A stretch of 64,000 nucleotides of DNA from an uncultured Alphaproteobacteria bacterium. GTDB lineage: Bacteria; Pseudomonadota; Alphaproteobacteria; Paracaedibacterales; CAIULA01. The stretch is from positions 186,001 to 250,000 of the forward strand of contig CAIULA010000034.1 of NCBI GenBank assembly GCA_903899945.1, given 5' to 3'. Made by a program: the position numbers and the translations under genes. The notes under the pieces are model-generated. The model searched no databases. It was not told the origin of the DNA and saw only the letters and a program-made list of their open reading frames with translations. Shown here in pieces: positions 39,197 to 45,903 of this stretch; position 1 is the first letter of the stretch, and each line of letters opens with the position of its first letter.

Positions 39197-39958
39197 CTAA
39201 AATTGATAAGCCAAACCGACTTTGATAATATGAGCGGTGTATTTTAAACTTTGATTATCATTGTTGCTAAAGCCACCACTATTATAATTTGCAGTTTGAG
39301 TGAGTTTCGTGCCTGGATTATAATTGTATTCAATACGTGCCAAAATATTATCGAAGGCTTTTTCTAAACCAACGCCTGGCACAATGACCATTTTTGTTTT
39401 TGTCGCTGTGAAAGTTGGACTTCCTGCGAAGCTTCCAGCTGTACTTCCTGGAGGGCTGGAAATATTTCCACCTGAACTTTGATGCAGAGCTTTATCGCGG
39501 CTAAATTCTAGCCCAACTTTACCATAAGCCATCATCGAGTTAGCAAATATCAGACCAAAACGAGGTCCGACTCCAAAGGCAAGGCCACGCTTATATTCAG
39601 AAGAAAATGGCCATTGACTTCCATCGCTTGCTGTTAAATTACCTGTTTTCATTTTGTTTGTTGTGTCGTCGTCTTGGACGGTGACTTCTCCACCTAGATA
39701 AAAGCCATTCATGTTATGTCCGTAACCACCCATTAGACCGTAAACAAAGCCATTGATTTTATTTTTATAGGAGGAATTAATAAAACCAGGTTGCACGGTT
39801 TGTCCACCACCGGAACTATTTTCAAGAACAGAGTCTGTAACTGTTTTTTGGATGTATCCTCCCTCAGCGCCAAGGTAAAACCCATTAAAGAGAGTATTGG
39901 CCTTAGCTAGGCTAATACTTGATACTGTAGCTAAAAGAGAAAGTATGGTTTTCTTCAT
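39197..39958 (-). CDS. Outer-membrane beta-barrel protein
   Basis: 253 residues. Signal peptide (MKKTILSLLATVSSISLAKA), then GFYLGAEGGYIQKTV, the start of an eight-stranded OmpA/Omp25-like barrel. Alternating strands end GPRFGLIF, YGKVGLEFSRD, GVGLEKAFDNILARIEYNY and the C-terminal IIKVGLAYQF, whose terminal Phe is the BAM signal. Gly/Ser-rich loops (SSGGGQTVQPG, SGGNISSPPGSTAGSFAG) would be surface-exposed. Similar small barrels are major surface proteins of intracellular alphaproteobacteria. Lies just downstream of the four exported paralogues on the same strand. Confidence 0.85.
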   Translation of the reverse strand: MKKTILSLLATVSSISLAKANTLFNGFYLGAEGGYIQKTVTDSVLENSSGGGQTVQPGFINSSYKNKINGFVYGLMGGYGHNMNGFYLGGEVTVQDDDTTNKMKTGNLTASDGSQWPFSSEYKRGLAFGVGPRFGLIFANSMMAYGKVGLEFSRDKALHQSSGGNISSPPGSTAGSFAGSPTFTATKTKMVIVPGVGLEKAFDNILARIEYNYNPGTKLTQTANYNSGGFSNNDNQSLKYTAHIIKVGLAYQF

Positions 39959-40101: not shown

Positions 40102-40920
40102 CTACATGTCTGAATTAGTATTATTGGTGATAGTTGAGCTAATTGATTTTCTTCTTCCAGAAGAAGATGAGAGCTGTGCAGTAAGAAGACTGTGCTGAGC
40201 TCCCAACCTTTTTAAAGATTCAATAACTTGGGGATAGGATGCTACCTGATCTTCTTCCCATGCCTTAACATCAACTGCACTGTCTGTAATAACTCCATGT
40301 CTATAAAGATCGATAATACCTTCAAAAAGTTCTTCTCCAATCTTAGCAGTTGCTAAGAGATATGCTGATCCTGATGAAATTCCATCTTTTCTTGCTTCTT
40401 CAATAGCCAGAAATCTTGCTGTTGCTGGTTTAAGAGCGTCAAAAAGCGCTTCGGCAATTTGATTAGCTTTTTTACTGGAAAAATCGCAAGATCTTACATC
40501 TGAGTTCAGTAAAACTGTATTTTGAAGTGCATATGTAAAGGCTGAGCGTTTTTCATCGACACTTTTCCCAGGAAATAAATCTAAAGTTTTTCGGGCAACT
40601 TGCTTGAAAAACCAATTTTCTTTACTCTCTAAAAACCAATTTTCTTTACTCTCTGTAACGTTTTCTAGAAATGACGTTACATATTGAAAGCAGCCATGAC
40701 TTGTATTTTGAGGTTCTAGGGCTTGGCAAATTGCATCAGCACTAAATACAAATTTAATTTTTGGAACAGTGAATTGATTTGCTCTATGGGTGGTGTAACC
40801 ATAATCTAATCCAGCTCTCCAGTGGTTATTTTCAGAGCTGGCAGAGGCCATTGTATTTATCATAGTTGATAGAACAGCGACAGCTGTAAGCATTTTTAAG
40901 GGTTTCACGAATTTCTCCAT
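40102..40920 (-). CDS. Exported paralogous protein 1 of the four-gene array
   Basis: 272 residues, no family recognised. N-terminal signal-like segment (LKMLTAVAVLSTMINTMASA). Shared family features: DYGYTTHRANQFTVPKIKF near the N-terminus (GY block), a middle helical part with LFPGKSVDEKRSAFTYAL, an EEARKDGISSG block, and the C-terminal YPQVIESLKRLGAQHSLLT. Ser-rich tail. It contains an exact 24-bp tandem duplication (40607-40654) giving two copies of ESKENWF. The most divergent member of the array. Location outside the cytoplasm is inferred from the signal. Confidence 0.75.
   Translation of the reverse strand: MEKFVKPLKMLTAVAVLSTMINTMASASSENNHWRAGLDYGYTTHRANQFTVPKIKFVFSADAICQALEPQNTSHGCFQYVTSFLENVTESKENWFLESKENWFFKQVARKTLDLFPGKSVDEKRSAFTYALQNTVLLNSDVRSCDFSSKKANQIAEALFDALKPATARFLAIEEARKDGISSGSAYLLATAKIGEELFEGIIDLYRHGVITDSAVDVKAWEEDQVASYPQVIESLKRLGAQHSLLTAQLSSSSGRRKSISSTITNNTNSDM
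40607..40654. repeat. Exact 24-bp tandem duplication inside an exported-protein gene
   Basis: The 24 bases at 40607-40630 are repeated exactly at 40631-40654. In frame it duplicates the eight residues ESKENWFL/F. Perfect identity suggests a recent slippage event, which can vary in copy number between strains. Confidence 0.9.
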
Positions 40921-41143
40921 AATTCAAATCACACCACGAACTGTGGTGATTGGTTCTAAATATTCTTATTCTTTATATTTATGCGCAAGAAGGCATATTT
41001 TTTAATTGTAAATATATATACTTTTTTGAATAAAGAAACAATATTAATTTGCCAATTAATTAGATACATTTTAATTAAAATTAAACTGTATTTTTGTTAA
41101 TTACTAAATGATAGATGATTAACGAATGCAGGTTCTAAGAAAG

Positions 41144-41172
41144 AGCATGAATTCATTTAATGAATTCATGCT
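41144..41172. terminator. Long perfect inverted repeat after paralogue 2
   Basis: Two 14-bp arms (AGCATGAATTCATT and AATGAATTCATGCT) around a single T. On the minus strand it lies 20 nt after the stop of the 41193-41984 gene and is followed by TCTTTCTTA. Probably a terminator; the U-tract is interrupted. Confidence 0.6.
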
Positions 41173-41192
41173 TTGTGCCTTAGCTTAGGATA

Positions 41193-41984
41193 TTAGTAGA
41201 GTTTTCTAGGTAACTTTCTTTTGGACGCAAGTGTAGCAACAAGAGTGCTCTGAAGAATTCCCATTCTTTTTAAAGATTCAATAATTTCGGGGTAGGATGC
41301 AGTTGGGTTTGTTGTCAGTTTTTCAACATCAATCTCACTGTCATTAAGAATCCCATCCTGATAAAGAGCAATCATCTGATTAGCAAACTCTATGAAAGGT
41401 CTTGCTTTTTCTTCTCTTGCTGCTCTTCCTTCTTCAACTCCGGCCTTTCTCGCTTCTTCAATGAATCTGTTACGGGCTTCAAGGGCTCTCTGAGCAGCTT
41501 CTATTTCCTCAACGATTGGTTTAAGTTGGTCATAAACTGAACGGGCTAATGAAGTTTGCATGGCAGGCGTGATATCATCTCTCTTGAATTGAAAATTCCT
41601 TACAGATATTACTAAATTATCTCTAGTAACCTTTGTGTCTAGCACTTCCAGAAAAAGGGCTTTTCTTGCATCGGCATTACTTCCTGGAAACTTATCTCTG
41701 ATTTTGATAACAGTATCCAGTAAAAACTTTTTTACAGGTTTGGCTGATGAAGTTGCCCAAAGAGTCCATGCACCTTTTTCTGGGTCAAAATGACGATTGA
41801 GGACACGGGAGACAGTATCGCGTGTAAAAGTAAAAGAATCATTACTTCCATCTCCAGTTCCCTTTATATAACCATAACGGTGCATATTTTCTAATGTATC
41901 CTTATCTTGGTCACTTACGGATGCCGACGCGCTTGCAATGGTTGATGCAACAATAGCAACCATTAGTAAACTTAATAAATTCAT
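41193..41984 (-). CDS. Exported paralogous protein 2 of the four-gene array
   Basis: 263 residues with signal peptide (MNLLSLLMVAIVASTIASA). Family blocks: MHRYGYIKGTGDGSNDSFTF (GY block then FTFTRDTVSRVLNRHFDPEKG), KFPGSNADARKALFLEVL, EEARKAGVEEGRAAREEKA, IALYQDGILNDSEIDVEKL, and the C-terminal YPEIIESLKRMGILQSTL. No catalytic motif recognised. Predicted largely helical. Followed by a long inverted repeat (41144-41172). Function unknown. Confidence 0.78.
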   Translation of the reverse strand: MNLLSLLMVAIVASTIASASASVSDQDKDTLENMHRYGYIKGTGDGSNDSFTFTRDTVSRVLNRHFDPEKGAWTLWATSSAKPVKKFLLDTVIKIRDKFPGSNADARKALFLEVLDTKVTRDNLVISVRNFQFKRDDITPAMQTSLARSVYDQLKPIVEEIEAAQRALEARNRFIEEARKAGVEEGRAAREEKARPFIEFANQMIALYQDGILNDSEIDVEKLTTNPTASYPEIIESLKRMGILQSTLVATLASKRKLPRKLY

Positions 41985-42349
41985 GATTTCTCCAAAATTT
42001 CAGTTGTTAATAGATGTAAAGTAGAATTTAATCTTTATACACGGATATAAATATTTTTTGTACTGTTATTTTGTAATTGAAATGAATATTCAAGACTATT
42101 TAAAGCGGGGGGATAAAAATGGCAAAGGTTAGGATGAGTTAGTTGTTCTACAAGATATACAAGATCTTTCCGGATCGCTGCGGCTTAGGCTCGCGATTGA
42201 CGATAAACCTTTTAAAAAGGTTGATTGTATCACTTTAAAGACACTAGATCTAGCAATGATTTTCCTTGGTTTTTTAAGGAAAAGCACTCCATTAGGTTAT
42301 TTATTTTCCCAATATTCGGTTGGGTCGCATAAGGTTGCGTGACCCAATA
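41985..42349. other. Intergenic region with hairpins, partly duplicated downstream of paralogue 4
   Basis: No gene seen. Contains AACCTTTT/AAAAGGTT (42206-42222), a TTTTCCTTG ... AAGGAAA hairpin near 42259-42287, and GGGTC ... GACCC with flanks TTGGGTCGCA/TTGCGTGACCCAA at about 42319-42347, just past the stop of paralogue 3. The TTTTCCTTG-TTTTTT-AAGGAARAGCA stretch and the following ATTTATTTT ... AATATT recur after paralogue 4 (43469-43535), showing that the duplicated unit included its 3' flank. Confidence 0.55.
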
Positions 42350-43324
42350 CTATTTGCCGTCAAAGTCTATCCTGACGGGTTTTATTGTTGAAATTGGTGT
42401 GCTAGTTGAAGGAGTGCCAGAATAGGCGCTGGATGCTGGTGTTCTAGCAGGCGTTGAAGCTACTGATTTAGCAGGTGTACTCATTGCTGATCTAGATGGA
42501 GAGCTTGCTTCTCTTGTCAGTCTTGCAAGTTCACCTGTCAGGGCGGAATGCTTAGCTCCTAATCTTTTCAAAGATTCAATGATTTTAGGATAAACTGTTT
42601 CAACAGCGGCACCAGTGTCAACGGTACTATCGTCAAGAACACCATCCTCATAAAGGCCAATCATTTTCTTGCTGAAATCAATAGCTGGTTCGGCAAGTCT
42701 TTTGTTTGATTCCGTTGCAAAGGCAACACCAGCTTCATGTGCACTTTGAATGGCAGCGCTTCGTGCTTGTGTTCGTAATGAAATTCTAGAATTTGCATCT
42801 CTAACAGCCTGAGTGTCTTTAAGTGCATCAAAAAGAGCTGTCGCACCATTATCTGACATTGAATCTGTTGGGGCTAACATTTTGTCGAAGCCAAGAGTGT
42901 TAACGCCAACAATAACAGCAGAACCTTCTTTTTGACTGAGGGCATTTATGAAAAGCTGTTTTTTCTGTTCAGCGTTGTCCCCTGGAAACTTTTCCAGCGT
43001 TTTACTAACAATATCTTTTAACAGTTTTTTTATGTTTTTGGTCGAAGGTTTCTTATGTGTATCAGACATTTTTTCTGTATCAAATCTGGGGTCCAGGATG
43101 TTAACAATGACCTGAGGGGTAAAGGTGAATTTATCAACAACAGCTCCATTTCCAAGTGAGCCTGGTTTATACTGATATCCATAATGTTCTATGTTTCTTG
43201 TCGTATCGAGATCTTGTTGAGCTAATCTTGGATCTGCTACAAGTGTTACCGTTGAAGCAACAGAGGGCAATAGAGTTGCCATTGATAAAAGTACTGCTAT
43301 TATAAGTGTTTTTGATAATTTCAT
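42350..43324 (-). CDS. Exported paralogous protein 3 of the four-gene array
   Basis: About 324 residues from ATG 43324; GGGG lies upstream and MKLSKTLIIAVLLSMATLLP is the signal peptide (an upstream start adds four residues). Family blocks: NIEHYGYQYKPGSLGNGAVV, FTFTPQVIVNILDPRFDTEK, KFPGDNAEQKKQLFINAL, NGATALFDALKDTQAV, SAAIQSAHEAGVAFATESNK, MIGLYEDGVLDDSTVDT and YPKIIESLKRLGAKHSALTG. The C-terminal tail is Ser/Thr/Pro-rich and low in complexity. The central block is nearly identical at DNA level to paralogue 4. No known domain. Confidence 0.8.
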   Translation of the reverse strand: MKLSKTLIIAVLLSMATLLPSVASTVTLVADPRLAQQDLDTTRNIEHYGYQYKPGSLGNGAVVDKFTFTPQVIVNILDPRFDTEKMSDTHKKPSTKNIKKLLKDIVSKTLEKFPGDNAEQKKQLFINALSQKEGSAVIVGVNTLGFDKMLAPTDSMSDNGATALFDALKDTQAVRDANSRISLRTQARSAAIQSAHEAGVAFATESNKRLAEPAIDFSKKMIGLYEDGVLDDSTVDTGAAVETVYPKIIESLKRLGAKHSALTGELARLTREASSPSRSAMSTPAKSVASTPARTPASSAYSGTPSTSTPISTIKPVRIDFDGK

Positions 43325-43603
43325 TGTTTTCCCCAAATTTTAGCCATACCATAAATTTTACATATGAAAGCTTTGTCTTCTACAAATGACTTTAATCTCT
43401 ATTCATTAAAAAAACGTTAAAAGTGCGCCTTAAAGTCCTTAATTTACTTTGTTAACAGCGGCACAACAAATTACTTTTCCTTGTTTTTTCAAGGAAGAGC
43501 ATTGTGTTATGACATTTATTTTTTAAATATTGGGTTAAGCGGTATAATGCCGGATGATACCGATTATTCGTCATTCCCAAATATTGAGTCAGATGTTGGC
43601 CTC

Positions 43604-43619
43604 ACAACTAATTAGTTGT
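43604..43619. terminator. 16-bp palindrome at the end of paralogue 4
   Basis: ACAACTAATTAGTTGT is a perfect palindrome overlapping the stop codon of the 43612-44568 gene. A second inverted repeat, CGGTAT ... ATACCG, lies at about 43541-43562. Possibly part of the transcript end; no clear U-tract. Confidence 0.35.
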
Positions 43620-44568
43620 CGTTATTCGTTGTGGAAACTGCTGAAGGTGTTAAAGGCGGAAAGGGTATAGGGGAGATCCTGCGTGCTGGTGTATTAGGTT
43701 CTGAAGCCGTTTCTTGTCTAACAGGTGTAGTCGGCGTTGATCTATATGGAGATTGTCTTTCTTTTCTCAGTCTTGCAAGTTCACCTGTCAGTGCAGAGTG
43801 CTGAGCCCCTAATCTTTTCAAAGATTCAATGATTTTAGGATAAACTATTTCAGCAGCGGCACTAGTGTCAACGGTATGATCGCTAAGAACACCATCCTCA
43901 TAAAGGCCAATCATTTTATGGCTGAAATCAATAGACGCTTCGGCAAGTCTTTTGTTTGATTCCGTTGCAAAGGCAACACCAGCTTCACGTGCACTTTGAA
44001 TAGCAGCGCTTCGTGCTTGTGTTCGTGCTGAAATTCTAGAATTTGCATCCGTGACAGCCTGAGTGTCTTTAAGTGCATCAAAAAGAGCTGTCGCGCCATT
44101 ATCTGACATTGCATCTGTTGGGGCTGATTTTTTGTTGAAGCCAAGTGCTGTAACTTCAACAACAACAGGGCCTTTCTCTTGTAAGGCTGCTATCATAATT
44201 GGCAAATTACTGTTAGTTGCATCGCCGTTAAACTTAGCCAAAGCCTTTGTTACAATGGCTTGAATAAGTTTCTTTGTGTTTTGAGCAGACGTTGGATCTT
44301 TTGCTTTAGATACCGTATCCGGATTAAATCTAGGGTCCATAACTGTAACGACAACTTCTGGAGTAATGGTCAATTTATCGATATTCGCCCCTTTAAAGAG
44401 TGTACTGTTATATGTATATCCAAAATGTTCTATGTTTCTGGTTGTGTCTTGATGCTGAAAGTCTAATCTTGGATGTGCGATTGGACCTGATGTTGAGGCA
44501 ATAGCAGGTATCACGCTTGCAGCGATTAATAACAGTGTTGTGGTTGCAAGTATTTTTGATAATTTCAT
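43612..44568 (-). CDS. Exported paralogous protein 4 of the four-gene array
   Basis: About 318 residues from ATG 44568, chosen because GGAGGAAG precedes it and MKLSKILATTTLLLIAASVI is a signal peptide. Family blocks: NIEHFGYTYNSTLFKGANID, TITPEVVVTVMDPRFNPD, NGATALFDALKDTQAV, SAAIQSAREAGVAFATESNK, MIGLYEDGVLSDHTVDT and YPKIIESLKRLGAQHSALTG. The tail is Pro/Thr/Ser-rich (TPARRISPIPFPPLTPS). First gene of the leftward array by direction of transcription. Function unknown. Confidence 0.8.
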   Translation of the reverse strand: MKLSKILATTTLLLIAASVIPAIASTSGPIAHPRLDFQHQDTTRNIEHFGYTYNSTLFKGANIDKLTITPEVVVTVMDPRFNPDTVSKAKDPTSAQNTKKLIQAIVTKALAKFNGDATNSNLPIMIAALQEKGPVVVEVTALGFNKKSAPTDAMSDNGATALFDALKDTQAVTDANSRISARTQARSAAIQSAREAGVAFATESNKRLAEASIDFSHKMIGLYEDGVLSDHTVDTSAAAEIVYPKIIESLKRLGAQHSALTGELARLRKERQSPYRSTPTTPVRQETASEPNTPARRISPIPFPPLTPSAVSTTNNDN

Positions 44569-44820: not shown

Positions 44821-45903
44821 ATGTCATTTTTTCCTTCTCCTCGTCCCAGTATTTTAAATATTTCTCCTTATGTTGGTGGGGATGTTACCCCCCCAGGATT
44901 CGTAAGACGCATAGGCCTTTCTTCGAATGAAAATCCTTTTGGACCAAGCCCTTTTGTAAAAGATATTATAAGGGCCGGGATAGATAGGGTTCATTTTTAT
45001 CCCAATAGCAACGCAACTGTATTAAGGCAAGGAATTGCCAGTTTTTATAATATAGATCCCAGTTGGATTCTATGTGGAAATGGCTCTGAAGATACACTTC
45101 ATCTTTTGGCGCGTACCTATGCGACTGAAGGAGATGAAATTATTTTTGCAGAAAGTGCCTTTGGGCTTTATCAAATTGCGACTTTAGCCGTTGGGGCAAA
45201 ACCAGTTTTAGTGCCACGTGAAAATTTCAAGCTGAACTGGAAAGCTGTTTTCCAAAAAGTGACACCTCAAACCAAAATCATTTATCTTGATCATCCTGGA
45301 AATCCTGTTGGGAATTTTTTAAATAAAGATGATCTTTTAAAATTGATCCAAGAGACTCCATCAACAGTATTGATTGTTTTAGATGCGGCTTATGCCGAGT
45401 ATTTAGAAGGTGTCGAGGGATATACATCAGGAATTGAGTTGGTTTCAGAATTTTCTAATGTTGTTATGGCTCGTACTTTCTCAAAAGCGTATGCTCTTGC
45501 AGGACTTCGGTTGGGGTGGATTTATGCAAATCCAAAGATTTTGGAACCTGTGAATCGTATTCGTCCACCATTTAACGTAACCTCTTTAACGCAAAATGCT
45601 GGAATCGAGGCTTTAAAAGATCAAACATGGGTCAAAAAGGCCATGGATCATAATGCTATTTGGCGTCCCTGGTTTGAAAGGGAAATAGAAAAACTGGGTC
45701 TTTCTTTTATTCCTTGCTATGCAAATTTCAGCATGGTTAATTTTGGCGACAAAGCGACCGATGTTTATCAGTTTTTAGGTGAAAATGGCATTATCGTACG
45801 TCCGATGGGGGCGTATAATTTACCTAGTTATTTGCGAATTACGATAGGACAGGCCCATGAAATGCAAGAATTGGTGGGTTTATTGAATAAGTTTTACACA
45901 TAA
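44821..45903 (+). CDS. hisC: Histidinol-phosphate aminotransferase-like PLP enzyme
   Basis: Class II aminotransferase of 360 residues, HisC type. N-terminus GLSSNENPFGPSP (SxNENPxGPS), PLP-phosphate region GNGSEDTLHLLART, the Asp in DAAYAEYLEG, and Schiff-base Lys in ARTFSKAYALAGLRLGW. The C-terminal Arg for substrate carboxylate is in LRITIGQAHEM. HisC-like enzymes can also make phenylalanine or tyrosine. No other his gene is in the window, so the true substrate is unclear. Ends in a strong bidirectional terminator. Confidence 0.9.
   Translation: MSFFPSPRPSILNISPYVGGDVTPPGFVRRIGLSSNENPFGPSPFVKDIIRAGIDRVHFYPNSNATVLRQGIASFYNIDPSWILCGNGSEDTLHLLARTYATEGDEIIFAESAFGLYQIATLAVGAKPVLVPRENFKLNWKAVFQKVTPQTKIIYLDHPGNPVGNFLNKDDLLKLIQETPSTVLIVLDAAYAEYLEGVEGYTSGIELVSEFSNVVMARTFSKAYALAGLRLGWIYANPKILEPVNRIRPPFNVTSLTQNAGIEALKDQTWVKKAMDHNAIWRPWFEREIEKLGLSFIPCYANFSMVNFGDKATDVYQFLGENGIIVRPMGAYNLPSYLRITIGQAHEMQELVGLLNKFYT

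Follow-up and report, generated by a model that had tools for sequence, protein, structure and literature searches.

We found that four tandem genes in the window (the whole stretch of DNA that was analyzed, 64,000 nucleotides long) belong to a lineage-restricted, multicopy, and modular family of predicted Sec-exported proteins, which appears to be diversifying rapidly and is probably host-facing, at the bacterial surface, in the host compartment, or in the cytosol. We hold this reading, the best explanation, with evenly balanced confidence. The genes are paralogues with leaders, a modular layout, mosaic sequence exchange, and a narrow distribution. The features of the locus are as follows.

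39197..39958, minus strand: outer-membrane beta-barrel gene, PF13505 type; a neighbor outside the system
40102..40920, minus strand: gene 4 (W4), 272 aa, the most divergent paralogue
41144..41172, minus strand: terminator-like hairpin 3' of gene 3, weak (region total of 7 found versus 4.6 expected)
41193..41984, minus strand: gene 3 (W3), 263 aa, predicted exported paralogue without a long tail
42350..43324, minus strand: gene 2 (W2), 324 aa, predicted exported paralogue closest to W1; tail ending in RIDFDGK
42469..42768, minus strand: homogenized tract, gene 2 half, 300 bp with 89% identity to gene 1
42779..43207, minus strand: N-domain of gene 2, residues 40 to 182
43612..44568, minus strand: gene 1 (W1), 318 aa, predicted exported paralogue with N-domain, C-module, and Pro/Ser/Thr tail
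43719..44018, minus strand: homogenized tract, gene 1 half, 300 bp, partner of the gene 2 tract
44821..45903, plus strand: hisC-like aminotransferase, conserved flank of the array site, named from its sequence and not by a family search

The four leftward genes of 263 to 324 residues described in the initial annotation were found as minus-strand open reading frames between positions 40102 and 44568. All four are intact, and a purine-rich SD-like stretch lies 5' of each. Their paralogy is evident from pairwise phmmer comparisons (E values of 1e-15 to 1e-108) and from 38 invariant columns in their alignment. With gaps of 272 to 365 bp between them, the genes seem to be expressed individually and not as a compact operon; promoter-like sites in the array region were no more frequent than in shuffled sequences. 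The ordered blocks that had been described as common to the four proteins are present, while the details of three of them need correction. (i) The F/L-P-G block lacks its Pro in gene 1 (FNG). (ii) The E-A-x-x-x-G block occurs in genes 3 and 4 but not in genes 1 and 2, and the columns of this region that are invariant across all four genes are A-R, I, A, and G. (iii) The YPxIIESLKRxG block, which had been taken for the end of the protein, is followed in genes 1 and 2 by tails that reach a length of about 60 residues. Within gene 4, a stretch of 24 bp is exactly duplicated in tandem and in frame (40607-40654), which adds eight residues (SKENWFLE/SKENWFFK).

Signal-peptide-like leaders are present in genes 1 to 4. 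A simple hydropathy and cleavage-site rule, which was applied to 49 window genes and flags 9 of them, recognizes in each of the four a hydrophobic leader that ends in a cleavage site with small residues and is not followed by a transmembrane helix; the leader of gene 3 is without a positive n-region. The earlier proposal of signal peptides in all four proteins agrees with this outcome, and the array proteins are predicted to be exported through the Sec pathway. Behind the leader come, in order, the N-domain, in some proteins a middle module, then the C-module and a tail. The N-domain comprises about 105 residues and is of the alpha/beta type, with the element order H-E-E-H-H-H-E-H-H in AlphaFold models. 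When this domain was folded alone, in a run with six sequences, the gene 2 domain was modeled with high confidence (pLDDT 84.2, pTM 0.82). The full-length model is of low confidence (pLDDT 61, pTM 0.42), and a Foldseek search with it returned nothing below an E value of 0.86. The C-module is helical and is found in nine copies in the source genome and, above threshold, in 0 of 41 other genomes; the C-modules of the array are homologous to those of the dispersed copies (hhalign P of 3e-8). Not every copy has all modules: the copy on contig C32 has no N-domain, and copies C34a, C21a, and G002c have no C-module.

The tails are variable and rich in Ser/Thr/Pro or in Gly. Five family members whose tails are otherwise unalignable carry “FD” among their last seven residues (RIDFDGK, DGMPLFD twice, NSIFDDE, and GGDGIFD), compared with 0 of 90 background open reading frames. 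These are the C terminus of gene 2 (window 42350-42372) and the loci L026 4392-5087, L029 2633-3697, L030 2691-3635, and L033 1853-2902. This post hoc find is a possible C-terminal sorting motif.

Sequence exchange is most visible between genes 1 and 2. Their synonymous difference is 0.4 to 0.8 in the N-terminal half and 0 to 0.2 in the C-terminal half, and this contrast, together with the 300-bp homogenized tract, produces a mosaic pattern indicating gene conversion or recombination between the two genes. In the N-domain tree, W1 and W2 form a clade (96/92) that is sister to the copies of two congeners, G001 and G002. Across the N-domain, pN never exceeds pS (NG86 counts), which places the array genes under constraint. 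Part of the diversification could reflect relaxed constraint instead of positive selection.

The initial annotation had described the genes as lineage specific and duplicated, and the wider survey bears this out. At least 12 copies or fragments exist in the source genome, where a profile of genes 1 to 4 identified further members on contigs C19 (three in tandem, at the contig end), C21 (two, one of them cut by the contig end), C32, and C34 (two more). Several source genome copies sit at contig ends, as repeats would. Among the relatives, there is one copy in the sister species G001, three in G002, and one in G006, a member of a second genus of the same bacterial family; weak matches in G002, G006, and G007 have mainly the leader in common. 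No family match at threshold was obtained in the remainder of the 42 genomes of the order or in a class sample of 385 genomes. A scan of contig collections gave matches in JAIEPD01 and JAIEMR01, which are public records of Alphaproteobacteria assembled from metagenomes. A3 proved too divergent for pattern scans.

A second exported family (“B”) has only its leader in common with the array family and possesses a conserved domain of its own (EITLDANLVDAFE...QVKNLLEGLKALY). It is located on G001:C84, C66, and C46 and on G002:C4, C28, and C47 (L147, L154, L156, L067, L158, and L160), and it was rejected as a remote relative of the N-domain, with hhalign scores no better than those of shuffled decoys. 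G003, of the same bacterial family, has eight RebB matches over the cut-off; eight PF11747 proteins were reported for the draft genome of Caedibacter (now Caedimonas) varicaedens (PMC4645214). This likeness suggests that the bacterial family is Caedimonadaceae.

The gene said to follow the array on the same strand does encode an outer-membrane barrel. It has a C-terminal Phe, and PF13505 matches three of its five homologues (best E value of 5e-18), though not the window copy at E values of up to 1. The link between barrel and array that this placement implied is not supported by gene order, and we rejected the barrel as a partner. The barrel (OMP_b-brl, PF13505) is a separate gene with counterparts in relatives that lack the array: in G001, hisC and a barrel of 81% identity are separated by 243 bp that contain no array, and each of the eight genomes from the bacterial family has a barrel homologue. 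In G002, a truncated family gene adjoins hisC. On these grounds, the array is an accessory block at the barrel/hisC site and the barrel a bystander. No secretion system was recognized among the genes located with the array. Near hisC in two congeners, there are long proteins with PTKAPTK-type repeats and a likely membrane segment (L044 7050-8990 and L031 2972-3991).

The absence of a recognized family, as originally claimed, was upheld. Sequence searches of Pfam, NCBIfam, PHROG, and PDB with the array proteins gave no match at the cut-off. Pfam and NCBIfam matches were weak and partial and fell under the curated cut-offs; matches of PHROGs to the family were likewise weak and partial (E values of at least 0.064). 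The best PDB sequence match of array members (E value of 0.016) was to de novo TIM barrels and covers 30 residues of gene 2. Two PADLOC matches were judged to be due to chance, namely, PDC-S58 (E value of 6e-4; 67 of 451 positions, a short stretch at the leader) and AbiEii (0.005; also a short stretch at the leader), as was the match of the wide profile to HslU in PDB (E value of 0.11). A phage, plasmid, or IMG/VR origin of the family was discarded after searches of those collections without matches, and no known effector, adhesin, or toxin was matched by structure or sequence.

In the scenario that we favor, the family belongs to an intracellular bacterium of the Holosporales/Caedimonadaceae type, and each protein would combine a cleavable leader and a compact alpha/beta N-domain with a helical C-module, in some cases preceded by a middle module, and would end in a low-complexity tail that changes fast. 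Copy number would grow through tandem and dispersed duplication, copies would gain or lose modules, and partial homogenization by gene conversion would create a shifting repertoire. Having left the cytoplasm, the proteins would most likely work at the bacterial surface, in a host-derived compartment, or in the cytosol, acting as binding or effector-type molecules whose diversification is driven by the host. Because the family is apparently exported, fast evolving, mix-and-match in its modules, and limited to close relatives, it probably acts in the contact of the symbiont with its host cell. Sec export, an end point outside the periplasm, and a role facing the host are what we infer from these properties. 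Against this reading stand the lack of matches to known effectors, adhesins, or toxins and of a secretion system located with the array, the fact that Sec leaders by themselves end at the periplasm, and relatives with zero or one copy that manage without the expansion.

A possible, although somewhat doubtful, alternative is that the proteins are periplasmic or envelope-structural, without direct host contact, and were duplicated for dosage or envelope remodeling. It is consistent with Sec-type leaders at a locus where no outer-membrane exporter was recognized, and with dispersed copies that lie near putative envelope genes (TolC-like on C21, BamA/TamA-like on C19, and mreBC on C32, all named from reading the sequence only). 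However, the neighbors of the dispersed copies differ from locus to locus, and conservation is the rule for envelope structural genes, but the array family is missing from most of the order and varies strongly in copy number and modules.

A further alternative concerns the origin of the N-domain, which might descend from ribosomal protein uS7 and represent a repurposed version of that fold in an exported protein; we regard this as unlikely. Several searches point toward uS7: (i) in phmmer searches against all PDB chains, S7 is the best match for W1 (E value of 0.74) and, in the same register, for the G001 homologue (0.91); (ii) S7 chains occupy ranks 1 to 10 of 350,542 in a Foldseek search with the confident N-domain model; (iii) uS7 fills 20 of 21 VIA-align rows (Z of 2.0 to 3.3); and (iv) a local hhalign comparison of the N-domain with S7 beats 150 of 150 decoys (P of 0.00086). 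However, all of these scores are sub-threshold, and homology was not accepted. The Foldseek matches have E values of at least 1.3 and TM values of 0.22 to 0.29, the rmsd of the VIA-align rows is mostly 4 to 5 Å, and five of 150 decoys score better in global hhalign. A 54-sequence S7 profile reaches at best 13.4 bits, against a Pfam curated cut-off of 24, and PF00177 (Ribosomal_S7) was not matched by hmmscan among 16 members. Moreover, the S7 signal is not stronger in the wider family (P of 0.026), and a family that has the leader in common but no demonstrated kinship obtains the same S7 score (P of 0.021). The likeness to uS7 in sequence and 3Di lies in two long helices and the following strand, whereas the N-domain is predicted to be exported, is near neutral (net charge of +1 to +7 versus +12 to +13 for S7), lacks the R-x-VGG beta-ribbon signature in the family alignments, and stays under every family threshold. 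If descent from uS7 were true, these would be exported proteins on a ribosomal-protein scaffold that had lost its basic RNA-binding surface and acts outside the cytoplasm. The S7 gene itself, rpsG, was not found in seven of the eight genomes of the bacterial family; because the contigs of G001 (C47) and G004 (C127) end just after or inside rpsL, an assembly gap is likelier than gene loss, which we rejected.

It is improbable that the copies are functionless decaying duplicates or selfish repeats, as the truncated copies C21a, G002a, and G002c, the copies at contig ends, and the lack of an array at the barrel/hisC site of the sister species might suggest, given that genes 1 to 4 are intact with SD-like stretches, pN does not exceed pS in the N-domain, and the invariant blocks are kept across genera.

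For Caedimonadaceae-type symbionts of protists, a recent review pointed to a type VI system and reported that experimental data are lacking both for how it functions and for possible secreted molecules (PMC11909080). With host-acting molecules almost unknown in these symbionts, the array family supplies concrete, species-expanded, and testable candidates for export, and it offers a confidently modeled N-domain, together with evidence that sequence exchange is ongoing. Lineage-specific multicopy families of secreted or exported proteins are a known general kind in intracellular bacteria. The array family differs from them in that neither its sequence nor its fold could be linked to a named family, whereas it shares with them the leader, tandem copies, a lack of outside homologues, modular exchange, and variable low-complexity tails. 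The protein family is new, but its kind is familiar.
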